Source of the DNA: a virus
Virus record (IMG/VR): IMGVR_UViG_3300021964_000026
Location: 1-64,000 of that record
Length of the DNA: 64,000 nt
Direction: 5' to 3' (one strand)
The notes under the pieces were generated by a model, which was not told the DNA's origin, ran no database searches, and was given only the letters and a program-made list of their open reading frames with translations. This document shows positions 1 through 48,800 of this stretch, one piece after another. The position numbers were made by a program, and so were the translations under genes. Each line of letters begins with the position of its first letter. Position 1 is the stretch's first letter.

Positions 1-555
1 GATGCCGCTGTTGCTGTGCTGACCAAGGCACAGTCCAACGGGTCGGGTGTCTACATGGACATCAACGGAGGAAAGACCTTCATTGAGCCATCCCAACTCG
101 CCTCCCGTCTCGGCTGGGGCGAGGACTATTGGCTCATGTCTGCCGCCTTTGAGATGCTCCGCATTGCTCCGAAGCGTTCCGTCAACCGAGCCGACCACTT
201 CAACCCGAAGACCGGAAAGCGATACAAGACCCGTCAAGCCTTCTCGGAATTGGTTGCCACCAAGGACCCCACCAAAACCGCTCGCCGTCGCAACTTCTTG
301 AAGCGCATCGCCGCTTTCATCATCACCGAGTCGGGGGCCAACTTCTACAACCACCGCTTCGCTTACTACATCACCGATGAAGCCGCCGAGGACATCCACG
401 CCGCCATTCACCTCAACACCGAGGTGGCCTCATCCAAGGTCATTGGTGGCAAAGCCGCTTCATGGCTGTGGCCCTACGAAGAAGCCAATTGGAAGAGCAA
501 CGGCTCCAAGGCCGAAGCCGCCCCCACCGGTGGCTTCTCCCTCAACGACCTTTGA
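1..555 (+). CDS. Hypothetical protein, 5' end cut by the window edge
   Basis: The reading frame is open back to base 1, so the N terminus lies outside the window; the GTG at 16 is only the first internal start-like codon. About 185 residues are visible. The middle is basic (several RR, KR and KK pairs around residues 55-105) and the last residues are GGFSLNDL after a Lys/Ala-rich linker. A short acidic/hydrophobic tip of this kind occurs in single-stranded DNA binding proteins, but nothing else supports that role. I do not recognise the family. It is the last gene of its transcript, followed by a clear terminator. Confidence 0.75.
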   Translation, partial: DAAVAVLTKAQSNGSGVYMDINGGKTFIEPSQLASRLGWGEDYWLMSAAFEMLRIAPKRSVNRADHFNPKTGKRYKTRQAFSELVATKDPTKTARRRNFLKRIAAFIITESGANFYNHRFAYYITDEAAEDIHAAIHLNTEVASSKVIGGKAASWLWPYEEANWKSNGSKAEAAPTGGFSLNDL

Positions 556-1041: not shown

Positions 1042-1058
1042 AGAAAGGAATGAAAGAC

Positions 1059-2663
1059 ATGACATTGAACATCGGAAACATAACCATTGACAGCACCCAC
1101 ACCAGCGACGACATCCCGTTGCTTGACATCGGGACCATCAACACCTCAACCTTTGAGGATGTGATGAGCATTGAGGTTCAAGCGAAAATGCGAGCAAGCC
1201 TCCCATCCAACCGAACAGGTGAGCAGTTGCTTGAAGGTGCGAGGGAGTGGCAAGCGCGAGCCTACAACATGTGGCTTGGCCTATCCAAGAAGCGCATGTG
1301 TGTCAAGGCGGCAACAGGTGCAGGTAAGACTCGTCTCGCCACCACCATCATTCACAATTGGTTGACCGACCAAGCGCATGCTGTTCCCAACAAGCGACAG
1401 ACCGTTGTGTTTGTCGTTCCCTCCAAGTCCCTGCTGATACAGACCAAGCAAACCCTTCTCGCTTGGGACTTGAGCATCGGCCTCATCGGTGGCGGCTACA
1501 AGCAGACCTCTCCCAACAAGGATGTCTACATCACCACCTACAACTCCCTTCACAAAGTGTCCTCGCTCAAGCACATCAAGGAAGCGAATGTCCTTCTCGT
1601 TCTTGACGAATGTCATCGGGCAGGTGGAGAGAAAGCACTCGCGAAACTCAAGAAGTTTCAAGGCAATGCTTGTCTTCTCCTTAGCGCAACACCAAACCGT
1701 AGCGATGGCGTTTGTGTCATGCACGAGATGAACACCCACCCCGAAGGCGCACCTTGTAGTGGTGGCGACAGTTGCAAAGCGGGTATTCACTTTGAGTTGT
1801 CCCTCATTGAAGGCATCAAACAATCACGCAACGGTGATGACGCGTTGGACTTTACCTTCCACATCGTGCATTGCACCATGACTCCTGCCGAACAGATTGA
1901 ATACGACGATTTGAGTGAGCGCATCAGCAAAAAATATCACAAGTGCTACAAGATGGTCAGCGAATCCTACGGTGGCAACCCACACAACCTGTTTGACCGA
2001 TGCAATTGGTCGCTTCCACCCAATGTCAAGCGCGAGTTGGCAATCTATCAAGCCCTGTGCAATCAGCGTAAGCGACTGATGAACGACATGGACTCTCGCT
2101 ATGACTACGCACAACAAATCCTCAACCTTTCCATTGGGCGCAAGTCTGCGCTCTTCCATGAAACCATCTTCGGTATTGAACGCCTTCACGGTATGTGCAT
2201 GGAGTTGGGTATCCATCCCCATGTCTACCACAGCGGAGTCAGCGAGTTGCCTCCCGATGTGTTCATCACTTACCCCGAACTCAACAACCCATCATTCATC
2301 CGACGCTTCTCCCAATGGGGCGACGAGTCCGACAAAGAGTTGCGACGATGGATGCGCTCTCCATCCGACGCGCTTCTCACATGCAAGTCGTTGAAGGAGG
2401 GTTTCAATGCACCCGATTTATCAGTCCTCGTAATGATGAGCGGAACAAATCAAGTGCGCTCTCGTGTTCAAACCATTGGTCGTGCTTTCCGAGGCACAGG
2501 CCACAAAGACATCGTGATGTTTGTCTATCCCAGCGGAGACAGCGAGCGACCAAGCGGTGATGAACGCTCACTCTCGCAACTCATTCACGATACAGGCACA
2601 CCCGCCGAGAACATCGCATGGCACACCAACGGGCTGAACCCAGCCCATTTCATAGTCCAATGA
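1059..2663 (+). CDS. SF2 DNA/RNA helicase (DECH box) with N-terminal LDIG-type motif
   Basis: A 534-residue superfamily 2 ATP-dependent translocase. Visible motifs: Walker A ATGAGKT (about residues 84-91), DECH at 183-186, SATPNR as motif III, and QTIGRAFRG near residue 471 as motif VI. A Cys-bearing insert follows motif III. The first ~35 residues carry two copies of a hydrophobic/acidic motif (NIGNITID, LDIGTIN) also present in two other proteins of this operon. I prefer the ATG at 1059 over 1050 because AAGGA at 1045-1049 is correctly spaced only from the later one. It probably remodels DNA or RNA during infection; the exact substrate is unknown. Confidence 0.88.
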   Translation: MTLNIGNITIDSTHTSDDIPLLDIGTINTSTFEDVMSIEVQAKMRASLPSNRTGEQLLEGAREWQARAYNMWLGLSKKRMCVKAATGAGKTRLATTIIHNWLTDQAHAVPNKRQTVVFVVPSKSLLIQTKQTLLAWDLSIGLIGGGYKQTSPNKDVYITTYNSLHKVSSLKHIKEANVLLVLDECHRAGGEKALAKLKKFQGNACLLLSATPNRSDGVCVMHEMNTHPEGAPCSGGDSCKAGIHFELSLIEGIKQSRNGDDALDFTFHIVHCTMTPAEQIEYDDLSERISKKYHKCYKMVSESYGGNPHNLFDRCNWSLPPNVKRELAIYQALCNQRKRLMNDMDSRYDYAQQILNLSIGRKSALFHETIFGIERLHGMCMELGIHPHVYHSGVSELPPDVFITYPELNNPSFIRRFSQWGDESDKELRRWMRSPSDALLTCKSLKEGFNAPDLSVLVMMSGTNQVRSRVQTIGRAFRGTGHKDIVMFVYPSGDSERPSGDERSLSQLIHDTGTPAENIAWHTNGLNPAHFIVQ

Positions 2664-2691
2664 GACAAACAAAAAAAACAAGGTGAAAAAT

Positions 2692-3099
2692 ATGAACCAA
2701 GAAAAACAATACCAACCAGCAGGTTGCATGACAGAACGCGAAGCAGTTGAGCGACTTGCTCAACGCCGATACAAGACACGCCAAGAGCGAGGTTTCGCTC
2801 ACCCCCAAGCGCGACCAAGCATTACTTTTGAGAATGCTGAAGGCCACAAGATGAAAGCATGGCGAAGCAAGCACGCTGTCCATGTGCGACGAGTCGGAAC
2901 GAGCGTTTGCGCTACGGTGACTTACAACCTTCCTCGCACACACACCACCGATGTGCCGAAGTCTTCGCCCTTCGCTGGCTGGACTGTCATTGAACTCCGA
3001 AGAGAGTGCCGTTTCCTCGGCCTCAAAGTGAGTGGAAACAAGAGCCAACTCTTCCGCCGCCTCAACAACAACCTCCACCTCCGAGGTGAAGAAGAATGA
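2692..3099 (+). CDS. Small basic protein with C-terminal SAP domain
   Basis: 135 residues from the ATG at 2692, preceded by AAGGTGA; the GTG at 2683 lies inside that binding site. Residues ~98-130 form a SAP motif (WTVIELRRECRFLGLKVSG followed by NKSQLFRRL), a helix-extended-loop-helix that binds DNA in many viral and eukaryotic proteins. The rest is basic and unrecognised. It ends RGEEE through an embedded ribosome binding site and overlaps the next gene by four bases. A second SAP protein lies in the virion block at 61677-62078. Confidence 0.75.
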   Translation: MNQEKQYQPAGCMTEREAVERLAQRRYKTRQERGFAHPQARPSITFENAEGHKMKAWRSKHAVHVRRVGTSVCATVTYNLPRTHTTDVPKSSPFAGWTVIELRRECRFLGLKVSGNKSQLFRRLNNNLHLRGEEE

Positions 3100-3593
3100 G
3101 CGATGACATTCGTTCCTTCACCGTTCACCCCATCATCCTCACCCACAGCGGTGCGCGTGTTGAAGAACCACGACGCATGACTCATCGTGAAGTTGTCAAC
3201 TTCATGAACGCAACCAACGAATCAACAGGTGTCGGCGTTCGCTTCGCGCTTACCGGCGAGAGAGCGAAAGTCATTGCTCGTCAACACGACATTGACAATG
3301 GCCTCCAAGTGATGCGCTTCTTCAAAGTCTGCTTCCGACATGAAGGTGCAGACTACACCACCACCATCACCGTTCCCACCAGCGAAAGACTCTACCTCGC
3401 TGGGGGTTGTGCATTCTACATCCCTGCGGGTGCTGACTACCGCGAGATGGAACATGTTCTCAACCTCCGACGGAAAGCCTCGCTCAAACTCGCCATGCAA
3501 TCCATGTTCGCTGAAGAAACGCGCTACGCTGATTGGCTCGTTGAGGAATCAAACCTCATTGTCATTGATGAAGTTGAGGGTGATGACCAATGA
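3096..3593 (+). CDS. Hypothetical protein, 165 aa
   Basis: No family recognised. It is a mixed alpha/beta sequence without membrane segments or Cys clusters; the middle (residues ~65-115) alternates hydrophobic residues as in beta strands and the C terminus is acidic (EVEGDDQ). It overlaps both neighbours by the ATGA arrangement, so it is translationally coupled in the helicase-to-DUF932 operon. Confidence 0.8.
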   Translation: MSDDIRSFTVHPIILTHSGARVEEPRRMTHREVVNFMNATNESTGVGVRFALTGERAKVIARQHDIDNGLQVMRFFKVCFRHEGADYTTTITVPTSERLYLAGGCAFYIPAGADYREMEHVLNLRRKASLKLAMQSMFAEETRYADWLVEESNLIVIDEVEGDDQ

Positions 3594-3778
3594 GCGACAA
3601 GCCAAACATCACCGTCATCACCGATGAGTGCATCTACGAAGAGTTTGGAGATGTCTCAACCCAAGCCGTTCTTCCACGCGACTTTCACAAAGCGTGGAGA
3701 CAGGCACAAAAAGCGCGCAAGATGATGCGCATTCACAGTCCACAGGACACCAAGAAAAACAAGGAGGAAAAACAATGA
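3590..3778 (+). CDS. Small hypothetical protein, 62 aa
   Basis: Short acidic N-terminal half and basic, Lys-rich C-terminal half (AWRQAQKARKMMRIHS, then a KK/EE tail). Starts at an ATGA overlap with the preceding gene and ends in an AAGGAGG ribosome binding site for the next. Function unknown; coupling on both sides and good codon use support it as real. Confidence 0.7.
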   Translation: MSDKPNITVITDECIYEEFGDVSTQAVLPRDFHKAWRQAQKARKMMRIHSPQDTKKNKEEKQ

Positions 3779-4194
3779 CCCCGAAACCCAAGACCAAGAA
3801 GCCCCACAACCCGAAGCACCGCCGCGTCTCGTTCCGCAAGGCACGACTGATGCGCGAAGCAGAAGCCAAGATGCCGCGCCTTGATTGCGGTTGCATTGAC
3901 TACAACGACGACGCGTTTGTCGGTTGTGAATCGTGCGGCTACAAGTCATGCCTTGACCACCACCACATTGACAGCACCCCTGCGAATGTGGATGATTGGA
4001 AATGCAAAGAAGGCTACGGATGCAAGTCGCACTACAACTGCACGCGCTGTGGACACATGGGTGAGAACAACCTCGTTCACGAAGTCGGCATGGTCTGTGA
4101 TGGTTGCATGACCAAAGAAGATTGGCGTGTTTGGGACTTGGAGAACCGCAAGTCCAACCCCGACTCATACGACTCACGAGGTGAAGAAGAATGA
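3775..4194 (+). CDS. Zinc-binding protein with multiple Cys/His pairs
   Basis: 139 residues from the ATG at 3775, which follows AAGGAGG at ideal spacing. A very basic N terminus (Pro/Lys/Arg, residues 1-35) is followed by about ten cysteines and several histidines: DCGCIDY, GCESCGYKSC, an HHH cluster, CTRCGH and CDGC. This implies two or three zinc sites of ribbon or treble-clef type. It ends SRGEEE. A nucleic-acid or protein adaptor role is plausible but not shown. Confidence 0.75.
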   Translation: MTPKPKTKKPHNPKHRRVSFRKARLMREAEAKMPRLDCGCIDYNDDAFVGCESCGYKSCLDHHHIDSTPANVDDWKCKEGYGCKSHYNCTRCGHMGENNLVHEVGMVCDGCMTKEDWRVWDLENRKSNPDSYDSRGEEE

Positions 4195-4544
4195 TTGCAG
4201 ACCGACGCGAACCTCATGAAATGGAAGCGCGCATCTTTGTCGTCATGCACGACAAGTTTCTCAGCGGTTTCGGACATGCCCCTTCTCGCTCATTCCTTGT
4301 TGTCGCATGCCCCACCACCAGCCTCGCTGAACAAGTGGCTTATCATGCGGAGAACCGACGCACCGAGATGAGGCGCGTCAGCATTCGCTACGGCACACTC
4401 AAGAGCGCACTCTCATCACGCCGACTACGCGGTGGCGACCATGCCTCCGTCATCGGTGTTGATTCTCATTGGCTCGGCTGGCCTTTCAACGAGGCCAACG
4501 AGTCGTCAATCAAAACCCAATGGAACAAGGAGGAATCCGAATGA
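4191..4544 (+). CDS. Hypothetical protein, 117 aa
   Basis: No recognised family. A beta-rich start (EARIFVVMHDKFLSGFGH) and a central helix (TTSLAEQVAYHAENRRTEM) suggest a compact alpha/beta domain. It overlaps the upstream zinc protein and the downstream gene by ATGA junctions. No Cys cluster or membrane segment. Confidence 0.75.
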   Translation: MIADRREPHEMEARIFVVMHDKFLSGFGHAPSRSFLVVACPTTSLAEQVAYHAENRRTEMRRVSIRYGTLKSALSSRRLRGGDHASVIGVDSHWLGWPFNEANESSIKTQWNKEESE

Positions 4545-5383
4545 AGAAACCATACCAAAAGAAATACCGACCCAACCAGCCCGAAGACCTGCACAGCAAC
4601 GGAAAAGTCAACCGACTCGCTTTCGTTTCGCGCATCGTCAACACCGAGAACAAACACCTGTCCGTCAAGGAAGCGTGGTCATTGACCAACAAGCGCGACG
4701 CCAAAGACATCGGACTCACCCAAACACGATTCGGTGCGGCACTCTCCGCCGCCGTTCGTAGTGGCCGACTTGACAAGACGCGAATCCAAGAGACTCCCAC
4801 GAAGACTGTTGTTGTGTTCCACCCAATCAACATGAAGCCGATGGGTCTTGACATTCCTGTTCCTCTCTACACGCGGGACACCACCAACGACAACGATGTG
4901 TTCACCTTTGACGACGACGACGACCTCTCTACCTTTGATGACTACGAACAGGCAGAAGCGGCAGTCAACAGCAAGCCCGATGCTGTCAAGGTTGCCGAGC
5001 AGGTCATCGCTGGACTCCCTGCCGATGGCCCAACTGTCTCCGACACTCCCCCCACTTTGGATGCGTTCTCCTTCAACGAAGACGAACCGAAGGAAGACTT
5101 TGTGGACTACATGGAAAGGCGGAAGAAAGAAAACGATGAGGCAGAAGAGGCGCGTCTCGCTGGACTCTCTTCTACCATCCAACACCACTTCACAGCGGAA
5201 CAGTTGCTTGACACACTCAACGCATTGAACCCCAACCTCCATGATGATGTTCTTGTCGCAGTCTACGAAGCACTCGGCAAGCCTGTCTATGATGGACTCG
5301 GCTCGCTTCTTGAACCACTACCGCGCAAGACTGAACACATGTCTTGGGCTTTCATCAACGGAAACTTGGTGGTGAAGCAATGA
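4541..5383 (+). CDS. Hypothetical acidic protein with possible N-terminal winged helix
   Basis: 280 residues from the ATG at 4541 after AAGGAGGA. Residues ~25-75 look like a small helical DNA-binding domain with a turn and a basic recognition helix (TRFGAALSAAVRSGRLDKTR). The middle is strongly acidic, including a run of five Asp encoded by a GAC repeat, and probably disordered. The C-terminal ~60 residues are helical again. This may be a regulator or a scaffold that bridges DNA and protein partners. The family is not recognised. Confidence 0.7.
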   Translation: MKKPYQKKYRPNQPEDLHSNGKVNRLAFVSRIVNTENKHLSVKEAWSLTNKRDAKDIGLTQTRFGAALSAAVRSGRLDKTRIQETPTKTVVVFHPINMKPMGLDIPVPLYTRDTTNDNDVFTFDDDDDLSTFDDYEQAEAAVNSKPDAVKVAEQVIAGLPADGPTVSDTPPTLDAFSFNEDEPKEDFVDYMERRKKENDEAEEARLAGLSSTIQHHFTAEQLLDTLNALNPNLHDDVLVAVYEALGKPVYDGLGSLLEPLPRKTEHMSWAFINGNLVVKQ

Positions 5384-5643
5384 AGCCAACACCAATCCCC
5401 GAAGACGGCTGGACTGACGCTGACATCGGACGCGAAGTGGTTCTCAAGATGCCTCACGGCACGCTTGTTCAAGACCGCATCGTGTTCATCAACACTCACG
5501 ACGGTGGACAATACATCGGTCCCGCGACAGAACTCGGTGCGCTTGCCGCACGCATGAGTTATGTCATTCCCATTCTCCTTGAGCATGATGCTTTCATCAT
5601 GAGCATGGACGACGACACAGAAAAACAAGGTGATGAACAATGA
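5380..5643 (+). CDS. Small hypothetical protein, 87 aa
   Basis: Starts at the ATG overlapping the previous stop, with GGTGA just upstream. A beta-rich core (REVVLKMPHGTLVQDRIVF) and an acidic C-terminal tail are visible. Ends with the GDEQ/ATGA junction typical of this operon. Function unknown. Confidence 0.7.
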   Translation: MKPTPIPEDGWTDADIGREVVLKMPHGTLVQDRIVFINTHDGGQYIGPATELGALAARMSYVIPILLEHDAFIMSMDDDTEKQGDEQ

Positions 5644-6044
5644 CCCCCGAAGAAGAACAATGGAGAAACAATACCCTGCAACGCATTGCTGTTGATATGC
5701 TGACGCGCATTGACAGCGGCGCACGAATGACCAGCGACGGCATCGCTCGCTACATGATGGACTTGGTTGCCAACTACGGCTACACCTCTTACGAAGAAGT
5801 GGCGAAGCGCGTGCTTGCAATCTTTCATTCAAACCCCGACAACTTCTGTGGTGATACCCCACTACGGTATCACAACCTCACGCTTGTGTGGCGAGAGCAA
5901 TTCCCCGAATCCTACGAAGCACATCAACAACGACTACGCGCACAGCAGGGCTTGGACAAGGTGAACAAGACCGTTGTTGACATGATGATGGATGACATGA
6001 GTCGCGGCTTCGTCGGCTTTGAACCAACGGAGGGAAGCGAATGA
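5640..6044 (+). CDS. Hypothetical helical protein, 134 aa
   Basis: Mostly helical, beginning MTPEEEQWRNNTLQRIAVDM and ending with a Met-rich helix (KTVVDMMMDDMSRGF). No motif allows a function call. It is coupled by ATGA overlaps to both neighbours. Confidence 0.72.
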   Translation: MTPEEEQWRNNTLQRIAVDMLTRIDSGARMTSDGIARYMMDLVANYGYTSYEEVAKRVLAIFHSNPDNFCGDTPLRYHNLTLVWREQFPESYEAHQQRLRAQQGLDKVNKTVVDMMMDDMSRGFVGFEPTEGSE

Positions 6045-6595
6045 CCTTCAACCAAGACAACTTCAACCTGCTCATCAGCGACAAGCGCACCGTCATCTCG
6101 TTCACCAACAACGACGCTGGAAACGGTAAGCGCAACATCATCATGGATGCAATCATCCGACCACACTCGTTCCTTCTCAACGAGAAGAAGACGGGCATCA
6201 TCAATCCGCACCGAAGCATGTCCAACATTCCTGTTGAATATGTCCGCGCTTGTCCACGATGTCATGATGATTGGTTCCCTGTTCAGCAAACCTACACGAG
6301 TGGAAAAGCAGACTACACGACTTACACCTGCGCCAACAAGTGCGGTGTTTCAATCTGCGATGACACCTTCAATCGTTTCAGTCCGCGCGGTATCAAAGTT
6401 GATAAACCCTCAACGACAGGAGAAACTATGGCGCGCGCCACAGAAACATTCACACTTGACATCGGCGACATCACAATTGATGTTGGCGACATCACAATTG
6501 ACTTGGGCGGAGTTGACTCCGCGCAAGACGAACCCACCATCGTGAACACCGATGTTCTTGACATCGGAGACATCACCATCGGAGGTGAGGAATGA
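6041..6595 (+). CDS. Zinc-ribbon protein with C-terminal LDIGDITID repeats
   Basis: 184 residues. The middle has a CPRC...CANKCGVSIC zinc ribbon (residues ~71-107). The last ~45 residues hold the repeated motif LDIGDITID / VGDITIDLGG and a final LDIGDITIGG. An in-frame ATG at 6428 follows AGGAGA at good spacing, so a 55-residue form made almost only of the repeats could also be produced. Related repeats occur in the SF2 helicase at the start of the operon and in the DUF932 protein that follows, suggesting a shared interaction element. Confidence 0.75.
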   Translation: MTFNQDNFNLLISDKRTVISFTNNDAGNGKRNIIMDAIIRPHSFLLNEKKTGIINPHRSMSNIPVEYVRACPRCHDDWFPVQQTYTSGKADYTTYTCANKCGVSICDDTFNRFSPRGIKVDKPSTTGETMARATETFTLDIGDITIDVGDITIDLGGVDSAQDEPTIVNTDVLDIGDITIGGEE

Positions 6596-6780
6596 TGCGT
6601 CGCTTTGAAACAGCAACCAATTCAAAAGACGACGCGTTCTTTTACATTCACATCGTTCACGACGAAGAAAAAGAACAACAACAACAACTCAATGACTTCA
6701 AGAAAGTCATTGAGATATATTGCGAGAACTTGAAGTCTCGCACATCACAGTCCAACGGACACAAAACAAAGGAGGCCTAA
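6592..6780 (+). CDS. Small hypothetical protein, 62 aa, Gln/Glu-rich helix
   Basis: Begins in the ATGATG junction after GGAGGTGAGG. A Glu/Lys/Gln-rich stretch (DEEKEQQQQLNDFKKV) should form a charged helix, possibly a coiled coil. Ends in AAAGGAGG, the ribosome binding site of the DUF932 gene. No function assigned. Confidence 0.65.
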   Translation: MMRRFETATNSKDDAFFYIHIVHDEEKEQQQQLNDFKKVIEIYCENLKSRTSQSNGHKTKEA

Positions 6781-6782
6781 AA

Positions 6783-8825
6783 ATGGAAAATGAAACCCCC
6801 AACGGAGCCAGCACACGGACTGCCATCATCGGTAGTTTGGTAGAAAACAAAACGACGGAGTCGGTGGTGTGGGTGCAAGCAACGCACCAAGAAGCACCAC
6901 TCGCCATCCCTGCACCATGCGTCGCCGCGAAGGTAGACTGCGGAGAGATGACCGTGTTCTGTTTACAGAACGCGGAATCACACGGCACACTTGTTGAAGT
7001 TGCCACCTTCCCGCAATACACCAACTACGACACGCAAGGCAACCGCGCCCTTCAAGACGCGGTTGACATGTGGGTTGAGTTCGGCGAGACGCTACCAACT
7101 GCACCACCATCCCTTGACATCGGTGAGGTCAGCCTTGACCTTGACCTTGACATCGGGACCATTGACATCGGTGGAGACGACAGCACACCCAACTTTGGAG
7201 ACGCGCTGAACATTGAACTCGCCGACCATGTGTTGGCCGAGAACGAGACGACGGAAGAGGCCGCTGTAAAGAAGGCCAAGAAGAAGTTGTCCGCGATGGA
7301 GAAGGCGAAGAAGGCTCGCGAAGAACGGTTCGCCGAGTCCGCCAAAATCAAGGACAACCTCAACTCCGACATCAGCAAGGCGATGGCTGACGGAAAGCGA
7401 CACGAAGACTTCGGTCCTTGGAACTTCCGCACCAAGACCTACGACATGGTTGCGCGCTCAACCGACCCCATCACAGGTGAGACTTCCTACCACGAAGTCT
7501 CATCCGAGAAGGGCGACACTCGCGTTCGTGCCATCTTCAACCCAACGCTGGCGACACAGGACAACCCACTTGGTCATTGTTTGAACCGAGCCATCGGTCC
7601 CAACTTCGTCCCTGTTGAACACCCCGATGTCTTCGTCCCCATCATTCAAACGGTGCGCGGAATCAACGAATCCAACGGCTGTGTCTACGAACTCAAGGAG
7701 GGCGACAAGGTTGCTTCGCTTGTGTCGGGTCAAGAACTCATCACTTGGGACGCGTTCTCTTTCAACAAGGGTGCGCGTGCCATGATTAACCTTGACTTGA
7801 CGGGCTACTCAACCAAGACTCGCAAGGAATCGGCAAAGGGACTGTCTGCCTTCGGGTATGTCAACCTGTCCGCGAACCGAATCAGCGACGCGCTTGTTGA
7901 GGAACAGGGTGGACACCGTGTTGGTGTCTCCATCATCAACTCCCACGACGGTAAGTCCGCGCTTCAAGCCTTCATGTCTGTGCTTCGCACCTACTGTGGC
8001 AACCTCGCCGCACGCGGTGGTGTTCAAGCCCTGCTCATGGCTGGCGACCGCACGAAGATTCGCCACATGGAAGGTGTTGTCTCGGAGTTTGACCCCGAAC
8101 AGTTCGCGAGCCAACTCGGTGCGGCCATGCTTGAGTCGCACAAGAACATGGTTGCGATGCACATTCTGCGCCACCTCCCCATTGAAGCCAATGTGTTTGA
8201 CAAGGTGATGACTTCCTTTGCTTCCCACCGCTTGGTTGCACAACCATCCCTCACCATTGAGGCTGGCGATGTTGACCAAATCCCACGAGACGAGAAGGGC
8301 AACCTCATCGTCAACGCGGCGATGATGACGAAGGATGCTGTCAAGGTCGGACACGGCCACGCTTACAACGCCATGATGCAGGGTTGGATGAACCCCGACC
8401 TTGACTATGTGGCGATGGGTGAGAACGGCTCCGAACTTGACCGCGAGTCAGTCGGCACGATGTTCCACGCCGCGCAAGCATTGACGGGAACCATCACGCA
8501 CAACCCAATCTTCTCCGATGGCAAGCGCGTTCTTCACGGACAGAAGCAGGGCATTGAGTTGCTGATGAAGAAGTCCGACACCGCCGTGAACCTCCTTGAA
8601 GAGATTGCCTTCGGTGCTGTTGATGCCTACGCCGCACACACAGGCCAGCCTGTGGATGACCTCTCGGCGATGGGCCAATGGGTCGCTGACAACCCCGACC
8701 AATTCAAGGTTCCTTACTCCAAGACGAAGAACGGAAAGAAAGTGATGACCCCCATCACCGAAATCCCCGCGTTCATGGACACTTGGAACTACAAGGTCAA
8801 GACCGTCACGGTCAACAAGGCTTGA
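6783..8825 (+). CDS. DUF932 family protein with N-terminal LDIG motif
   Basis: 680 residues from the ATG at 6783. The central region matches the DUF932 family of phage and plasmid proteins: a SLVSGQELIT strand, then INSHDGKSALQAFMSVLRTY followed by CGN (about residues 385-410), equivalent to the family's SHDG...R.vC.N block. The family is common in mobile elements but its biochemistry is unknown. The first ~100 residues form a separate beta-rich domain; residues ~109-130 carry the LDIGEVSLDLDLDIGTIDIG motif; a Lys/Ala/Glu-rich coiled coil follows (about 155-195). It is the last gene of the first operon, before a structured intergenic region. Confidence 0.75.
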   Translation: MENETPNGASTRTAIIGSLVENKTTESVVWVQATHQEAPLAIPAPCVAAKVDCGEMTVFCLQNAESHGTLVEVATFPQYTNYDTQGNRALQDAVDMWVEFGETLPTAPPSLDIGEVSLDLDLDIGTIDIGGDDSTPNFGDALNIELADHVLAENETTEEAAVKKAKKKLSAMEKAKKAREERFAESAKIKDNLNSDISKAMADGKRHEDFGPWNFRTKTYDMVARSTDPITGETSYHEVSSEKGDTRVRAIFNPTLATQDNPLGHCLNRAIGPNFVPVEHPDVFVPIIQTVRGINESNGCVYELKEGDKVASLVSGQELITWDAFSFNKGARAMINLDLTGYSTKTRKESAKGLSAFGYVNLSANRISDALVEEQGGHRVGVSIINSHDGKSALQAFMSVLRTYCGNLAARGGVQALLMAGDRTKIRHMEGVVSEFDPEQFASQLGAAMLESHKNMVAMHILRHLPIEANVFDKVMTSFASHRLVAQPSLTIEAGDVDQIPRDEKGNLIVNAAMMTKDAVKVGHGHAYNAMMQGWMNPDLDYVAMGENGSELDRESVGTMFHAAQALTGTITHNPIFSDGKRVLHGQKQGIELLMKKSDTAVNLLEEIAFGAVDAYAAHTGQPVDDLSAMGQWVADNPDQFKVPYSKTKNGKKVMTPITEIPAFMDTWNYKVKTVTVNKA

Positions 8826-33733: not shown

Positions 33734-35230
33734 ATGACAGAAGAAAGGAAAACAGGAAGAGAAGCCCAAATGAGCAACATTCGTGCCGCTGTGCAAGTGG
33801 CCGAAACCGTGAGGTCAACGCTTGGCCCTGCGGGTATGGACAAAATGCTCGTAGACGAACGCGGAGAAAGCATCGTGACCAACGACGGTATCACGATTCT
33901 CCGAGAACTTGACACCGCACATCCCGGTGCGCAGATGATGGTTCAAGCGAGTCAAACGCAAGAAGAAGTGTGCAAAGACGGAACGACCAGCGTGGTTGTG
34001 CTGGCTGGACAAATGCTGGCCTTGAGCGAGGGATTGCTCATGCGAGGCATTCACCCGCAAACAATTGTGCGCGCATACAACAAAGCATCCAAAATCGCCC
34101 TTGAAAACATGCCGCTTCCCGAAACAAACATCGCTGTTGATGTGGTGGCCGCAACTGCTTTGCGCGGCAAAGCGTCCGAGTCTGCTCTTGGATTCGCCGC
34201 TCAACTCGTTGAAAACGCCGCGTTGACTGTTAATGGCAACCTTGACCGTGTTCGCACACTCACTCAAGCGGGTGGCGACATGAGTGATTCTTACATCCAC
34301 AGCGGTCTTGTTCTCAACAAGACCTTCGTGAATCCCGACTTTACCGGGAAAGAAAATCCGCGCATTCTTCTCCTTGATGGAGGAATTGACGGCTTCAATT
34401 ACGAGGATGTCCAAATGCAAATCAGCGACCCAGCCCAACTTGATGCAATCCGAAAACAAGAGATGCAGATTTTGAGTAGCGTGTCCCACGCTCTTTCCGA
34501 GATGGCTGACATTGTGATTGTCCGAGATGGTGTTCACGAGGCCGTTGCCAAATACCTTGACGCACAGAACATCGGTGTTGTCAGTCGTGTCCAGCAAAGC
34601 GACATGGACAGCATCGCTCGCATCACAGGTATCCCCGTCCACCACCGAATCACCGAAGTTGCTGATGACTACGAAGCGCGTATTGAAGGTTCAATCAAAT
34701 CCATTCGCATTGGCGACCTTGACTATGTGTCGGTTGAAGCGAAGGAAAGCGACACCATCACCATGATTGTTCGGGGCGCAACCCGACAAACGCTGGATGA
34801 ATACGAGCGTGCGTTTGACGACGCTCTTGGTGTGGCTTGTCTCTACTTGAATGACAAGCGACTCTACCCCGGTGGTGGTGCTGTTCTTTCTAACTTGGCG
34901 ATGACTGTGCGTAGTCATGCTACACATGAACGACAGTCTTCTGCTCGTGAGCGTATGTGCATGGAAGCCTTTGCAGATTCCCTTGAAATCATCCCTGCCG
35001 CTATTGCCAGCAACGCTGGTATGGACGCGCTTGATGTGGTGATGGAGTTGCGTTCGGTGACGAACAACTACGGGCTTTACATTGACTTTGCAGGGGAAGG
35101 CTCAATCGGTGATATGGTCAAGCATAATGTGTGGGAACCTGCCGCGCTTGTTGAACAAATCATCAAGTCGGCTACCGAGGTTGCTTGCTCCATCCTTCGT
35201 ATTGATGACATTATCGCGAGGCGTGGTTAA
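33734..35230 (+). CDS. thsA: Group II chaperonin (thermosome) subunit
   Basis: 498 residues with thermosome hallmarks: STLGPAGMDKML near residue 35, the ATPase motif KDGTTS (81-86, catalytic Asp82 kept; cellular versions have GDGTTS), a PGGGA motif and a full apical domain. It is about 45 residues shorter than cellular subunits and ends IIARRG, without the Gly-Met-rich tail that lines the chamber. It may assemble alone or mix with host subunits to fold the large virion proteins. Chaperonin genes of this type are known in magroviruses. Confidence 0.93.
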   Translation: MTEERKTGREAQMSNIRAAVQVAETVRSTLGPAGMDKMLVDERGESIVTNDGITILRELDTAHPGAQMMVQASQTQEEVCKDGTTSVVVLAGQMLALSEGLLMRGIHPQTIVRAYNKASKIALENMPLPETNIAVDVVAATALRGKASESALGFAAQLVENAALTVNGNLDRVRTLTQAGGDMSDSYIHSGLVLNKTFVNPDFTGKENPRILLLDGGIDGFNYEDVQMQISDPAQLDAIRKQEMQILSSVSHALSEMADIVIVRDGVHEAVAKYLDAQNIGVVSRVQQSDMDSIARITGIPVHHRITEVADDYEARIEGSIKSIRIGDLDYVSVEAKESDTITMIVRGATRQTLDEYERAFDDALGVACLYLNDKRLYPGGGAVLSNLAMTVRSHATHERQSSARERMCMEAFADSLEIIPAAIASNAGMDALDVVMELRSVTNNYGLYIDFAGEGSIGDMVKHNVWEPAALVEQIIKSATEVACSILRIDDIIARRG

Positions 35231-41226: not shown

Positions 41227-42896
41227 CAAATCTTCCTCCGTATTCGTCGTCCCTTCGTGGTTCGCATTTCGTGTGCGCGCGGTCGGAGCATACGCACCTC
41301 CGCCGCTGAACCGGGTATTGCGGCTCCGCTTACCAAACTTACGCCTGTGAAAGTGGTGGCTGTTTTGCCGCTATACGATACGAGCGATTGGTCAGCGATG
41401 ATGAGGTGGCCGCTTGAGTCAAAACCGTCGGTGCTGGCGACTGTGATAGCCCCCGCCGAGTGTGTGCCGCTGATGCGCTTCGTGATACCGAAGCCAAGTG
41501 CTGACCGACCCGAACCATATCCGCTGTTGCGGTGAGCCAAAAGCATGCCAGCGTGGATGTCCGAGCCTGTGTTTGTTGCGCTTGTTTTGGTTCTCGCCAA
41601 CTTCCCGATAACAGGACGGATTCGCAGTATGCCGCGCACCTTCAACTCCGCGCTACCTACGCCGCTTTTGTTGACGCTAACAACCTGTTGAGTTCGGTCA
41701 GCCTCACCTGCTTCATCGTCTACATCTGCGTCGTTGCCGAAAGCGTTGACCACAGCCTCAAGTCCCGCTTCGTAAGAAATCATTTGAAAGTTTGAAGTGC
41801 CATCCGAACTGTGTTCCAACTCAATGATGGCTTGACGCGATTCGCTGAATGAGGATTTGTAGTCAACGACATCACCGGGTTCCATGTCCCAAGACTGCGC
41901 GTGAAGGTTTGACTGCAACGCACCTTGCGCTTTTTTGTTGAGGCGAAGCATTTGGTTTGCGCTACTTCGTGCTTTTGTTTCGTTGTTCACAGTAGGGTCT
42001 TTGACCTTCATTTGTTTGATTGAGCCTTGTCGCTTCTGTGCTTCCGCGTCATCTACTTCAACGCTGATGGCGTCGTTGAGAGCGATGCCTGTGCCGCGCA
42101 TAAGAATGCGATTAGCGACATCGGTGATGGGGTCAACTTTGGTTTTGCCGATGCCGCGCTGGATACCCAACTCACGGTCTTTGATGTTGAAGATTTTAGG
42201 CGCGTATGTGAAGTTCCCAAAGCGGTCGTAATACATGATGAAGTGGTCGTGCCGACCAACAAAGCGCACCGCTGTTGGCAGAACAGTTGAGTTGAAGTTT
42301 TGCGCAACGAAGAGCGTGCTGATACCTTTCGCTTGCACGCTGTTCAATCCATGCAACGCCTTCGTGAACAACTTCTCAACTAAATCGGTGCTTCGCAAAC
42401 CAACGCTCACCGTTTGTCCAGCGCGAACATGACTTGTCTCAATCATTTGATAGTCAGCCAAACTCTTTCCTCTCATGTTGATAAGTTGAACTTGCGCGCC
42501 TTTGGTTGCTGACGCAACACCCTGTGTTCGCAGACGAAGTGTTGGGTCGTTCGCATCAATCAACAACATGGGGCGAGATGATGACGCGCTTAGTTGTTCA
42601 CCGTTGAAGAAAGGTGCGTCTTCGTGTGTTGTGTGCGCGAGTCTTACTGATGATTGTTCTTCGCTGATGCGATAACGACGAGGGTGAGTCGGTTGGAAAT
42701 CCTCTTGGTTGGGTTTGCTCACTTGCGTTGTCTTGCTGGTGTCTTGAATTGTTTCGTAAACAACATGATGAACGGCGTTATCCACAAAGGTTGGGCTTTC
42801 AGCGATAGCCCCCACTTCGTCGTGAACTTCTTTTGCACGCCCAAGACGCTGACCCGCGTATGAAGTATTGGTTGGTGATGGAACGCTGAATGTCAT
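41226..42896 (-). CDS. Tail/baseplate protein, 556 aa, unrecognised family
   Basis: Beta-rich protein with a basic C terminus (TTKGRRIRRKI). A central segment (SKPNQEDFQPTHPRRYRISE to GNFTYAPKIFNIKDREL) resembles tail-hub-like sheets in general character, but there is no firm motif. Start overlaps the stop of the giant gene by ATGA. Probably part of the tail tip complex by position. Confidence 0.62.
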   Translation of the reverse strand: MTFSVPSPTNTSYAGQRLGRAKEVHDEVGAIAESPTFVDNAVHHVVYETIQDTSKTTQVSKPNQEDFQPTHPRRYRISEEQSSVRLAHTTHEDAPFFNGEQLSASSSRPMLLIDANDPTLRLRTQGVASATKGAQVQLINMRGKSLADYQMIETSHVRAGQTVSVGLRSTDLVEKLFTKALHGLNSVQAKGISTLFVAQNFNSTVLPTAVRFVGRHDHFIMYYDRFGNFTYAPKIFNIKDRELGIQRGIGKTKVDPITDVANRILMRGTGIALNDAISVEVDDAEAQKRQGSIKQMKVKDPTVNNETKARSSANQMLRLNKKAQGALQSNLHAQSWDMEPGDVVDYKSSFSESRQAIIELEHSSDGTSNFQMISYEAGLEAVVNAFGNDADVDDEAGEADRTQQVVSVNKSGVGSAELKVRGILRIRPVIGKLARTKTSATNTGSDIHAGMLLAHRNSGYGSGRSALGFGITKRISGTHSAGAITVASTDGFDSSGHLIIADQSLVSYSGKTATTFTGVSLVSGAAIPGSAAEVRMLRPRAHEMRTTKGRRIRRKI

Positions 42897-45800
42897 GCAC
42901 CCACCCCGTTGTCTGTTCTGTCTCCTTCGCTACTGTGGTTGCTCGTGTTGAGTTTGTCGCCAGCGTAGAGCGATTGCGTGTAGCGTGGTTGCACCGTGTA
43001 GTCAAGACGAACAAATGTATCCTGTCCTTCGTTCACCGATTGCCGACGAGCCGCGTCGCCACGGAAGTGTTGTAGCGTGTTGTTGGTCACAATCATGCGC
43101 GCGACAGGTTGAGTAGCCAGCGTTGTGAAATCGCTGGCTTCACTACCGGGGATTTGAGGTCCGTTGCTGGTAGGGTCGCTTGTTGATGTCGTAAGGTCAA
43201 ACAAGTAAACAGGCGCGTATGGTGGGTTGGACGGAGCAGGGTTGCTGTTTCGCATGTAGGAAGAAGCGGCATCAGCGGCGCGTGCGTTGGGCGTGTCGTA
43301 GACAAACACACCGTAGCGACCGGCGGCAGTTGCGGACAGCACATGCGTCGTATCATCACGGAACAATTCAATGTGTTGGTTATCAAGAACGCGCACAGGG
43401 CGAACGAGGAACTTGATGGTCGTGTCCTTTGTGTTGGTTCTGTATGAGGTTGAGTCATGATTGCTGGTTTGATACGGATTGGTCGTGACACCGGAAGACG
43501 CGCCCCAATTAAGGTCGCTGATTGCCTCTCCATCCGATGAAACTTCCATGATGTAAGTGCCACCCAGCGGAGGAATGCCATGCGTGGTTCCAAACTTCAA
43601 AACCTGCTTGGCTGATGAAAGGTTGAGCGTGTGGAGATTGAGGTTGTCAACCGCGCGGTTTGCTGTGCTAACACCACCCGCGAGAATAAAGCGTTGTCCA
43701 ACCTGTCGGTCGGTGTGAACGCTGTTTGCTTCGGTGCTGGCGACAACATATCGTGGCGACATCTGTCCATCATTTTCAACAACACTCATGCCGTCAATTC
43801 CAATACGCGGTTTTGATTTTGCAATCGGTTCTTGCATGAAAGTGAAGTTTGATTTTTCAACATTGGTTCCAACATTTGCTTCGCGCTTAAGCAATCCATC
43901 ATCACCTGCGAGTTCCAACTTTGCGCTAATTCCACGAGCCACTTCGTGAGATTCCAATTGAACATTTGAAGGGCGCAAAAAGCCACTCATGAACGGCGGC
44001 TCGCTGGTGTGATGAGAAAGCACCAAACCAAACGGACGCATGTCTTCGGACACATCTTGGAGAATGTCTTCGTTGAAGTAAGTAGGATAGCGCACACCGC
44101 GTCCGTCTCCACGGTCGCCTACGCGCTTGGCTGTCGCAGGGTCAAAGAAATGAATGTGTGTTTCTGCGCTTCGTAGGTTGCTATCGGTAAACATCGTCTC
44201 GGCTACCTTTGTTCGGTCTGTTGCCCGGTATGCATCCTCCGGGTCCCAAGACGGGCGGATGCCAAAGCCGCGCACAGGGAAACGACGAACCTCTTCACCG
44301 GTCGTGTTGCCCCACCAATCAATCATGTAGTGCGCTTGAGCCAATGCGAGATTTACGCGTTGGTCATCCGCGTCTGTCCCTGCTCTATGACCCGTTGGTG
44401 AATCAGCGTGGAACTTGCGAAGAGCGGTTGTCGGGTTGCGTATGTTGCGCACCGCACAACCAAACCCTTTCGTCATTCGGCGACCATCGCTGTATCGCAC
44501 CTGTTGAAACTTAAGGTCGCTACCGATAAGCGCGGATGCGTTTGTCTGCCGCTCAATGATGCCGACATAATTTTGCTTGGTGGTTTCTGTTGTTGAACTG
44601 TTAGCACTTCCGTTTTGCACATTGGTGCGCGTCGTTGCATTTTGACTGCTGATAAACGGACCTTCGGCTTGGAAGTGATAGTAGATGTGTGGGTCGCGCA
44701 ATCCTTGATTTGCTTTGATAGACCAGCGCGGTCGGTTGTAAGGTTGACGAACGGATATACGGTATCCCCACCCTGCTTGTTTGTGTGTTGCTTTAGTTTG
44801 AATAGTATCCGTTGTCGTTTCTACATCAGCATTTGCGACAGTCAAACCCTTTGCATCCGATACCTGCTTGATGTTGTTGTCATCCCACTTGTCGCGCCAA
44901 CCGGGTGCGGCTGTGCCGTAAAGCGAAAGCGAACTCATTTGCGCACCAAAACGATGACCACCCGGCCAAAATGCACCGAGGTTGTATTTGCGCGACTTTC
45001 CGTCTATCCCTGCTTGATTGGTGAGCGCGGCCACAGAATAAGTGTCAGCGATTGAACCATCCACATTGCTCGGTGATTTCATTCGGAACTTGAACGGACC
45101 GTCGCTCATGGCGTAGGTAAACTCGTGGTAGTGAATCATCTCGTAGTGTTCGGGCGCGTGGTTGTAGGCTTTCTTGTCAACCGCCGCATCACCTTTGTTG
45201 GTTCGGCTGTCCGAAAACCATGTCATCGGACGACCGAGGTTGTAGTGCCATAGGCAAAGGTATGCATCGGGCAAATGTAGGCTGTTGGTGTCGCGCGTTC
45301 CGGACAGCAGTTGTGGCAAGTTGCGCGTAGCAACACTTGCTTGTGATTTGTTGTAGACTTCACCAGCACCGAGGTTGTTAAACTTGGACTTGATGCGGAC
45401 GGTTGCGCCTTGAACAGCCGCGCTCCAAAATCCGCTCGTGATGGCTGTCACGCTGTTGAACACAACAGGACCACTTGCGCTAAGACCGCTGATGTAGCCA
45501 CGGTCTTCGTATGATGCGGTTTGCTCTACACCACTATCATCAATGATAACAAGGTGTTGCGCATAGTAGTCAGCACCAGCAACAGGGAAAAGGTTGTTGT
45601 TGCGCACATACAGTTTGCTGTTTGATTGGTCGCCGTGTTCAACAGTCGCGGTAGGCGTAAGAGAAGTGAGGTAGTCCGTGTAAACATCAAGGTAGTGGGA
45701 CGGGTATCCAAGCATTGTCGTTTGTGTTCCAACTGCACCAAGCGTTGAACGACAGAAGAGGTAGTAGTCATCGGGGTGATAGTGTTGCGAACCTTTCCAC

Positions 45801-48800
45801 GGCGCAGTTGCCGAAAAAATCGTAGAAGAAGCAAGCGCGGCACTCCACCACGGAACGGTCACGGTGTGGCCCGGTGTTGAGCGGTGGAACATGTTTGGAT
45901 GATACGGTAGACTGCGACGCGTAAATGCACCCGAAGAAGTAGCATTGACACCGAATGGGTTGCTCAATCCGAGTGTGGGAATGTTGGTGAATTGTTCGCG
46001 CGTTGATGGGTCAATGTCCAAAATAACTTCGTTGAGGTAGATTTCACAACCGCGCACATCAGCCATTGTTGCTTCGGAAAGAATGAGGTCGCGGTCTTGC
46101 ATAGCGACGACCGTAGCAAACAGTTGGTCGGTGAGTGTGCGCACCGTTGTGTTTGTCCCACCGGGGTCTTCGGGAGCATCGGTTGAAGCAAAGGTCGTGT
46201 TCTCGTTGTTCCCCATGAATTGTTTGCTGAACAGGTTGGGTTGGATAACAATTTGATATGCGCCTACTTCTGCTGGGTCGGGGAAATGGAAGGCGGTGTT
46301 GTAGTTGGTTCCGCTTTCAAGTTGAATGCGATGACCACCAGCGGCGTTGCATGATGCGCTGTCATCTGCGACGCCGTATCCATCAAAGCGCAACTTGGTT
46401 TCAGTCAACAGCGTAAATCCATCACCGTGAATATCGCTTGGTGGGTTAGACGCGGTTGTTCCCGAAAACCACACAAGCGGGTTGGCAATGGTCTTGGTTG
46501 TGTCGTAGTCGGTTGCACCAAAGCATGCGCGATTTGCTTGGTAGATTTGTTGATAGAGTGGGTGTGCGAGGTGGCCGGGAAGCATCGCCATCGTCGGCAT
46601 GACATAGTGGTGTCCCATGCGCGGTAATGGCATGGGCGTCAATTTGTTTGCCGCGCGCACCAAAGTTGCTGGGCTTGTTCCAGCCGCGAGCGAAGTCCAA
46701 TCGGTGTGTGCTTTGTCGGGGCTGTTCCCACTCACTTCGGCGTGGTCACGCAATCTGCGCGCCGCAAACTGTCGTGTAGACCCAGCAGGGATGTAGTAAG
46801 ACGGTTTGATGGCGTCGTCTTCTTTGGCTGTAAAATCGGGCGCGAAGACAACACCTGTAAATCTGTGATAGGTCACACCCTCAATCACCACGGTTGTGTT
46901 GTTAGTAAAAGACGCGATTGTGCCATTGACTGACAGGAAGTAGCGTCCGTCCGGTGTCGGGTCTTGCTTCCAAATGTCAGCCGTGATGCTTTCATTGACG
47001 GTGATGTAGTCGTTGCCTTTGTCTTTGAATGTCAATCTGTTGAGCGTCATAGCATTGCTGACGATGCGCAACGGTTCGCGTTCCGTATAGGTGTAGCCCA
47101 TCTTGGTGATGTGAAAATACAACGCGCGGTCGTGAGGCTCGTATGCGGTTTCAAGAATGTTGGTTGATTGCAACGCGTTGTTGCTGTCGGGGAAGTTGTT
47201 TGGGTTTTGATTGATGTGTTCGTAGCCATCCTGTTCCCAAAACGGTTCTGTTCGCGGTCGGTCGCTGTCCGATTCAAACGCTTGAGACACACCGCTTACC
47301 GGTTGACTTGGGTGTTGCAACCCGCCACCACCCAGCGTTTCATGCTGGTAGGCTTGTAGGCGGTCAAAACCAGCGCGCACAAGAATGTTGCCGGGGATGT
47401 CATCGTGATTCGGCAACTGAATGCGCATGTTAGGAGAAACGCCCGAACCTGCGAGTGCGGGTGCAAGACCTTCGTTTTCTCGGTCATGCACCATTTCGTA
47501 GTCGCGAACAACAACACCCAGCGGTGAACCACCGGTCAGTCGGTGTTGTTGACCCGTATCATCAACAACTATGATTTCGGTGAATTGGATTTCTTCGTTC
47601 GGTATGTTAAGCGCGTTTCGGACTTCGTAGGGGTATTGTTCAGCGAGTGCTGGATGAGCCAACTCTTGTGCTTGGATAATTGGATACATTGCCGCGTTTG
47701 TTGTTTCAAACGAAAAGCGCACATTGCCGTAGATGGTTTCACCAAAGCGAATGTATTCCGACCCAACCTTGTGAACCTGCCACGGCATTGAACCAAGCCC
47801 TCGCGCGTTTTGAGCAGGGAGTGTAAGGTTGCCTCCACCCATCCGTTTCCAAACAACATGCTCGGCGAAGAAATTGCGTGCGGCTAATCGTCCTTTGTAG
47901 TGCGCGTAAATGCCATCGCGGTGTGTTGAATAAGTATCGTAGCCTGTGTTTTCGGTCTTGGCTGTTTCCGAATCAAACAGATTATCGTTTGGGTAGTGCG
48001 CGTTGTTGGGGTTTTCGGTCTTGTCAAAGAACAAATCACCGGTAGGATAGAGGCAGGTTTCAGCCTGTGCAAGTTGTGAAGCAGTAGCCGCCGATGTTGT
48101 CCACAACGGGTTTGCGTCTGTTGGTTCAGTCATGGTGGTGTCGTGCATTGCTTCTACATGCGGACCAGCGTTTGATTCAGCGTTGTAGCGGTCGTTGTTG
48201 AAACGGTCGTTGTGATACGCTGTGATGGTCCCGCCTTGCGTTCCTCCCCACTTGAGTTGAAGCATGTCTCCGCAGGTTTGTTGTCCGTTGCGCGCGGCTT
48301 TAGCAATGATAGGCAGGTCGCCTTCATAAGAAATAACAACAAAGTGTCGTTGATGCATTCCGACTGCATTGTGCGTGCTGGTTTTTGGCTCCCAAATATA
48401 ATCGCCGTTTTCCAACTCTCCACCTTCTGCTATGCGCAAAACCCACTCCATTGATTGAGGGTTATGACATGCGGTAGCCGCACCGTAAGGCGTAAAGCCC
48501 AACATTGGATGCCATGCGCCAAGACCAGCCGCAACTTTGTTGCTGATGTTGAGACTGTTGAGGTAGGAATAACGCTCACCATGCCAGCCGACAGCACCAA
48601 CCGCGCGTGTTCGGTCTATGGCATCAACAACGCCGTTAAAGTGGACTTGTGTTGACGCATAATGGTCAAACGGGCTGTTTGACATTTGCCCCGACGAAGT
48701 TGCTCCTGTGGCTCGCGAGCCGTCAACTGCGTTTTGAAAGCCGTTATCCCAGCGCAAATTGCCAGCCTTTGACCAAACAAACACTTTGTGACCTTCTCCC

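Follow-up and report, generated by a model that had tools for sequence, protein, structure and literature searches.

Tagged genes at the locus

The window analysed here is a DNA stretch of 64,000 nucleotides (nt), bases 1-64000 of the 102,931-base virus record IMGVR_UViG_3300021964_000026. Near its start lie the genes of a superfamily 2 (SF2) helicase, a zinc-ribbon-like protein (hereafter the zinc protein) and a DUF932 protein, which share a short peptide of the form LD[IV]GDI. The original prediction placed this peptide in these three proteins and nowhere else in the window; we find it in all three, and its absence from the rest of the window holds. Three further proteins of the same virus, of a 390-amino-acid (aa) type, 517 aa and 2,310 aa, carry it beyond the window. 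We refer to the peptide as the tag. The six tagged genes lie within about 25 kb and flank the divergent start of two operons, and most of their products have at least two copies, located in flexible linkers or tails.

Window 1050..2663, plus strand: SF2 helicase (ResIII/DEAD); Pfam ResIII 1.4e-22 over residues 65-217, with the tags preceding the domain in an N-terminal leader
Window 1065..1091, plus strand: helicase tag LNIGNITID; in relatives this leader carries IDWG or NTMP
Window 1122..1142, plus strand: helicase tag LDIGTIN; ranked 3 of 33,134 sequence windows by a profile not trained on the helicase
Window 6041..6595, plus strand: zinc-ribbon-like protein; CPRC..C...C pattern recognised by eye, tagged C-terminal tail
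Window 6455..6511, plus strand: zinc tail tag copies LDIGDITIDVGDITIDLGG
Window 6557..6586, plus strand: zinc tag LDIGDITIGG at the C terminus
Window 6783..8825, plus strand: DUF932 protein (PF06067, 7.4e-06); tagged linker between the N-terminal part and the DUF932 core
Window 7113..7175, plus strand: DUF932 linker tag copies LDIGEVSLDLDLDIGTIDIGG
Window 1..555, plus strand: C-terminal part of the 390-aa-type protein; 34% identity to a 390-aa protein of the relative G001
Record 102360-102931: N-terminal part of the 390-aa-type protein, with the weak tag LEVGSV; 48% to the same G001 protein
Record 86119-87672: 517-aa protein beside the terminase; two copies, LDVGNITM and LDVGDISV
Record 94996-101928: 2,310-aa protein; three tandem copies, LDVGDI/LDVGSI

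The helicase belongs to the ResIII-type SF2 proteins, with a Pfam match to Helicase_C (4.6e-05) and with DECH and SAT motifs read in its sequence. The DUF932 protein scores 26.3 bits against PF06067, above the cut-off of 23, and its start is most likely ATG 6783, not TTG 6720, because of the alignment with relatives. Its AlphaFold model has a mean predicted local distance difference test score (pLDDT) of 36.5, and its profile retrieves only weak Rheb-like matches from the PDB (E 0.05), which we judge to be chance. Domain searches gave no family match for the zinc protein, and a fold search with its structure model was also empty. The 2,310-aa protein and a 598-aa protein of these viruses have no useful Pfam, PHROG or PDB match; the 517-aa protein and a 2,015-aa protein have no Pfam or PHROG match, and the 390-aa protein has no PHROG match. 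In the phage collection searched, no relatives of the DUF932, 598-aa or 2,310-aa proteins were found.

The window encodes a family B DNA polymerase, a clamp-loader ATPase, an ERCC4-type nuclease and a TCP-1/cpn60 chaperonin. Beyond the window, the same record encodes a portal, a prohead protease, a terminase and a major capsid protein, the last being nearest to those of the Haloarcula viruses HVTV-1 and HCTV-1/5 (33%). Judged from the replication gene set together with these virion genes, the record is a tailed virus of archaeal type. One protein of G001 is matched both by the open reading frame (ORF) that closes the record and by the one that opens the window, and the record is therefore probably a circle or joined end to end.

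Recurrence of the tag against chance

A simple count of shared words does not distinguish the window virus from shuffled proteins, and the separation is achieved by the profile test only. When the profile is built from the zinc and DUF932 copies alone, the top 11 of 33,134 sequence windows (94 ORFs) all fall in tagged proteins. Held-out profiles of this kind, built for three viruses, give their highest ranks to tagged proteins alone (the top 11 of 33,134, 7 of 11,336 and 17 of 24,959 sequence windows), and the scores are mostly low when a profile is run on other viruses. At the DNA level, a degenerate pattern for D[IV]GDI has 6 matches on both strands of 103 kb, all of them sense, in frame and within tagged genes; its reversed control has 0 matches in the same 103 kb. 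The proteome scans thus give no sign of a motif scattered through unrelated proteins. Among the tagged regions, a usable structure model was obtained for the tail of the zinc protein (residues 116-184), which is predicted to be disordered and not buried, with a pLDDT of about 33.

Replacement of the tag in related viruses

The relatives read comprise four contigs with DUF932 proteins 63-86% identical, one at 71% in the core, one helicase contig and a group of late-gene relatives. All viruses studied are contigs only, some of them fragments, with ORFs called mechanically, and all six tagged proteins could be read in three viruses. The LDIG tag is found in none of these proteins of the first four relative contigs. 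Each relative has a different peptide at the corresponding sites, common to its own proteins. In G001, the helicase, the zinc protein and the DUF932 protein bear IDWG; its 390-, 590- and 2,225-aa proteins bear IDFG or VDFG. The DUF932 protein of the window virus is 91% identical to that of G001, yet LDIG is exchanged for IDWG in the DUF932, zinc and helicase proteins together. Nowhere does the DUF932 alignment vary more than in the tagged linker.

The same arrangement recurs with other peptides. G002 and G011, whose contig ends overlap by 127 identical nt, carry NTMP[DE][LI] or close forms in six proteins (17 copies), and TMP is present in no other of their 88 ORFs. The tag of G003 is FDMTGATP, with FDM[TS]GA in four proteins; that of G004 is DDMxIDFG, and that of G010 is S[VI]SF. 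Nearly all viruses read have the same private tag at both sites of the 517-aa family, including LNFG, KFTF, SPFNF, PQFTFAD, TP[ST]FDG and GLVLDD[LM]PPP. No such tags are found in the same scan of HVTV-1 and HCTV-1, two cultured haloarchaeal viruses with related capsid proteins.

The proposal that the peptide lies outside recognised domains and could gather its proteins therefore gains from the relatives, in which it is rewritten in step. Its scope, a system of helicase, zinc and DUF932 proteins, was drawn too narrowly, since six proteins are involved and two of them are late proteins encoded near the terminase. The DUF932 protein, which had been suggested as the specific partner, is not singled out by these comparisons; at 91% identity between differently tagged viruses, it appears to be a tagged client like the others.

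Matching of tags within each virus

The tags match within a virus better than between viruses. When DUF932 linkers are paired with zinc tails across five viruses, the real assignment scores 365 and ranks first among the 120 permutations, the runner-up reaching 284. In the 517-aa protein, whose two sites were compared across 16 viruses, the score is 685 against 460 +/- 27, and 0 of 20,000 permutations reach 685; control regions give no signal. Kinship among the viruses lowers the effective sample of these tests, and a 517-aa test with one virus per tag has the same outcome.

A prediction was also made for two contigs with late genes only, one sharing its metagenome with G003 and the other with G010: each was expected to bear the tag of that virus. 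The contig from the G003 metagenome has EFDMTGATP and NFDMTGANP in its 517-aa protein and FDMSGAKP and FDMSGAEP in its 2,310-aa homologue. The contig from the G010 metagenome has SVTFTSKP and PISFESKP (S[VI][ST]F) in its 517-aa protein. The predicted tag is found on both contigs, each pair being linked by metagenome and not by overlap.

Codons of matching residues are the same in 0.35-0.65 of pairs, compared with 0.34-0.48 expected from codon usage. Whichever strand the gene is on, every tag copy reads in sense and in frame. Since codons vary among the copies, the matching is maintained mainly at the protein level rather than at the DNA level.

A putative docking tag

We favour the reading that the peptide is a virus-private docking tag on six unrelated proteins of one virus, to which we assign a probability of about 0.7. 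The reading is drawn from the sequences: the tags occupy the same sites, are shared within a virus, co-vary between viruses and match at the protein level. The tags would bind a common partner or hub, and the early DNA-handling proteins would gather with the late 517- and 2,310-aa proteins in one viral assembly. Their specificity may separate a virus's own proteins from those of co-infecting relatives.

By analogy, we tentatively suggest that the likeliest use is to pack four of the proteins (helicase, zinc, DUF932 and 390-aa type) into newly made virions, ready for the next infection. Virion loading is preferred because early DNA-handling proteins share the tag with terminase-adjacent late proteins, as in the internal proteins of T4 (PMC9026906). 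The chief competing use would be in a compartment for replication or assembly. The tag might further serve as a rapidly changing self-recognition code, rewritten in concert, by which the six proteins assemble only with their own kind and co-infecting near-identical viruses or satellites are excluded; we put the chance of this somewhat below even. No description of such tags was found in the open-access literature.

Several observations weigh against a docking tag. No viral receptor that changes in step with the tag was found among the proteins compared. Capsid proteins are 92-99% identical between differently tagged viruses, which speaks against a simple pocket on the capsid. In the pair G014 and G015, the late genes compared are mostly 95-100% identical, including the capsid protein and terminase, and the tags of the 517-aa proteins differ; a receptor would therefore need to change at only a few residues, be located elsewhere or be a protein of the cell. 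At least four viruses have a 2,310-aa homologue without a tag. Codon agreement also slightly exceeds expectation in most viruses.

We searched for what the tag binds among the viral proteins. Between G000/G005 and G001/G007, four proteins (2,310, 517, 598 and 420 aa) change along with the tag, and the genes lying among them do not; the capsid protein, portal, terminase and protease stay conserved whichever tag a virus has. We rejected an encapsulin-like mode of binding to the major capsid protein, as that protein stays 92-99% identical while tags change. The 598-aa protein switched in the first viruses, but in a larger set it is 91-98% identical with different tags, and it was dropped as the specificity partner. 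The case for the 2,310-aa protein as receptor is weakened: it switches in distant pairs (90% vs 34-47%), but across an overlap of 1,307 aa the G014 and G015 versions are 95% identical despite different tags. The candidates that remain are a receptor changing by few residues, an early-region receptor, a cellular receptor, or self-association.

Alternative explanations

The main rival is self-association, in which each tag copy binds its like and the six proteins would assemble jointly or condense with no separate receptor; the tags would need to match only one another and could drift as a set. The G014 and G015 pair, the closest with different tags, fits this explanation, as do the several copies per protein and the hydrophobic-x-hydrophobic cores in flexible segments. 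On the other hand, the proline-rich tags NTMPDL, TPTFDG and FPDAVPDEEE are ill-suited to beta-zippers, the zinc tail is modelled as disordered, and a receptor could switch by few residues. We consider self-association unlikely. The related suggestion of a polymerising beta element may apply to the window virus but fits the proline tags of other viruses poorly.

It is improbable that the tag is instead a site for cleavage by a viral protease or for binding a host factor, different from host to host. In its favour, the virus encodes a prohead protease, the tags lie in exposed linkers, and the lack of a viral gene seen to switch in step would be understandable if the receptor were cellular. However, the protease is 86-93% identical across very different tags, so that a change of specificity from LDVGDI to KFTF is hard to expect, and near-identical viruses, probably with the same hosts, bear different tags.

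Homogenisation at the DNA level, by which recombination would copy repeats between neighbouring genes without a shared binding function, could draw on the slight excess in codon agreement and on 48 nt of DUF932 core beside the tags in the zinc tail of G002, but is very improbable given that synonymous sites differ widely among copies, near the codon-usage expectation, and that the copies, all in frame and sense, span both strands, about 25 kb and two operons, with unrelated flanks.

The G002 zinc gene (L003:3157-3858) contains, between tag copies, the 48 nt of DUF932 core (FRTKTYDMVARSVDPL), 100% identical. A segment encoding THTSARIGCTTNIGAIADSLKEKGVAPIL is common to the G003 zinc gene (L004:1179-1958) and an unrelated gene of G002 (L003:1130-1873), with 128 of 135 nt shared. 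These shared pieces show that short segments are copied between neighbouring genes. Such copying provides a mutational route by which tags could spread, and selection would then preserve the match within the set.

Comparison with known systems

The capsid targeting sequence (CTS) of phage T4 is a short peptide on the internal proteins IPI, IPII, IPIII and Alt, and related phages have other proteins with CTS-like sequences (PMC9026906, PMC7411985). Like the CTS, the tag is common to several otherwise different proteins (six, in three viruses), with a cargo role that is only putative. The CTS occurs once per protein, as an N-terminal propeptide of about 10-20 aa that the prohead protease cuts off. 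The tags differ in number and place: they come in several copies, in leaders, linkers or C-terminal tails, and the helicase copy alone is N-terminal. The tags are also rewritten as a set between close relatives, each virus having its own.

A second likeness is to the targeting (cargo-loading) peptide of family 1 encapsulins, with the consensus SDGSLGIGSLKRS (PMC8346489). LDVGSI and LDIGDI resemble L-x-[IV]-G-[SD]-[LIV], and the virus has the HK97 fold, a natural receptor fold. The resemblance is confined to the window virus and its nearest kin, whereas relatives use KFTF and LNFG. The tag is not kept where the shell is kept: the capsid proteins of G000 and G006 are 99% identical, with tags LDVGDI and LNFG. 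The likeness is probably chance, because viruses with 92-99% identical capsid proteins use tags without the encapsulin form.

With respect to DUF932 (PF06067), the core of the tagged protein matches the family (E 7e-06) and differs by a large N-terminal extension with the tagged linker. Amyloid- or RHIM-like signalling motifs have a short beta-prone core without proline, which partner proteins have in common; LDIGDITI could fit such a core, whereas several relatives have proline inside the tag.

In the case of PCNA-interacting peptides, several proteins dock on a hub via a short peptide in flexible segments. Motifs of this type are conserved across species since the pocket of the hub is conserved, and docking motifs are usually recognised by such conservation. 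In contrast, the tag is replaced between close relatives. It is conserved within one genome only and replaced as a set in the next, and conservation-based searches would therefore miss it. Should the tag be a docking code, it would illustrate how a virus can hold a many-protein assembly together while changing the address, and would provide a natural set of orthogonal peptide tags. It would also link genes of unknown function (DUF932, zinc and 2,310-aa proteins) to one machine, and make discrimination between own proteins and those of co-infecting kin directly testable.

Other observations

A 304-aa protein (window 4469-5383) has the acidic repeats VFTFDDDD and AFSFNEDEP, which may be a tag of another kind; the repeat in its G001 homologue is VFTFDEDD. 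A 244-aa protein (L007:9581-10315) has no Pfam match and no convincing PDB match. It is 88-98% conserved in relatives and shows, by eye, the Ras/Arf-like motifs GPTQVGKTT, DIGGQQ and NKAD. The 2,015-aa protein (L006:8114-14161), located between protease and portal, has 50-58% identity where capsid proteins have 92-99%. Contig L074 (PAUP01000076.1) of this virus group sits in a Cytophagaceae metagenome-derived assembly, probably by a binning error. The chaperonin gene at window 33734-35230 is a virus-borne member of the TCP-1/cpn60 type (E 2.3e-116). A single ORF of 5,109 aa occupies window 42893-58222 on the minus strand, in the tail region, with relatives 73-85% identical.

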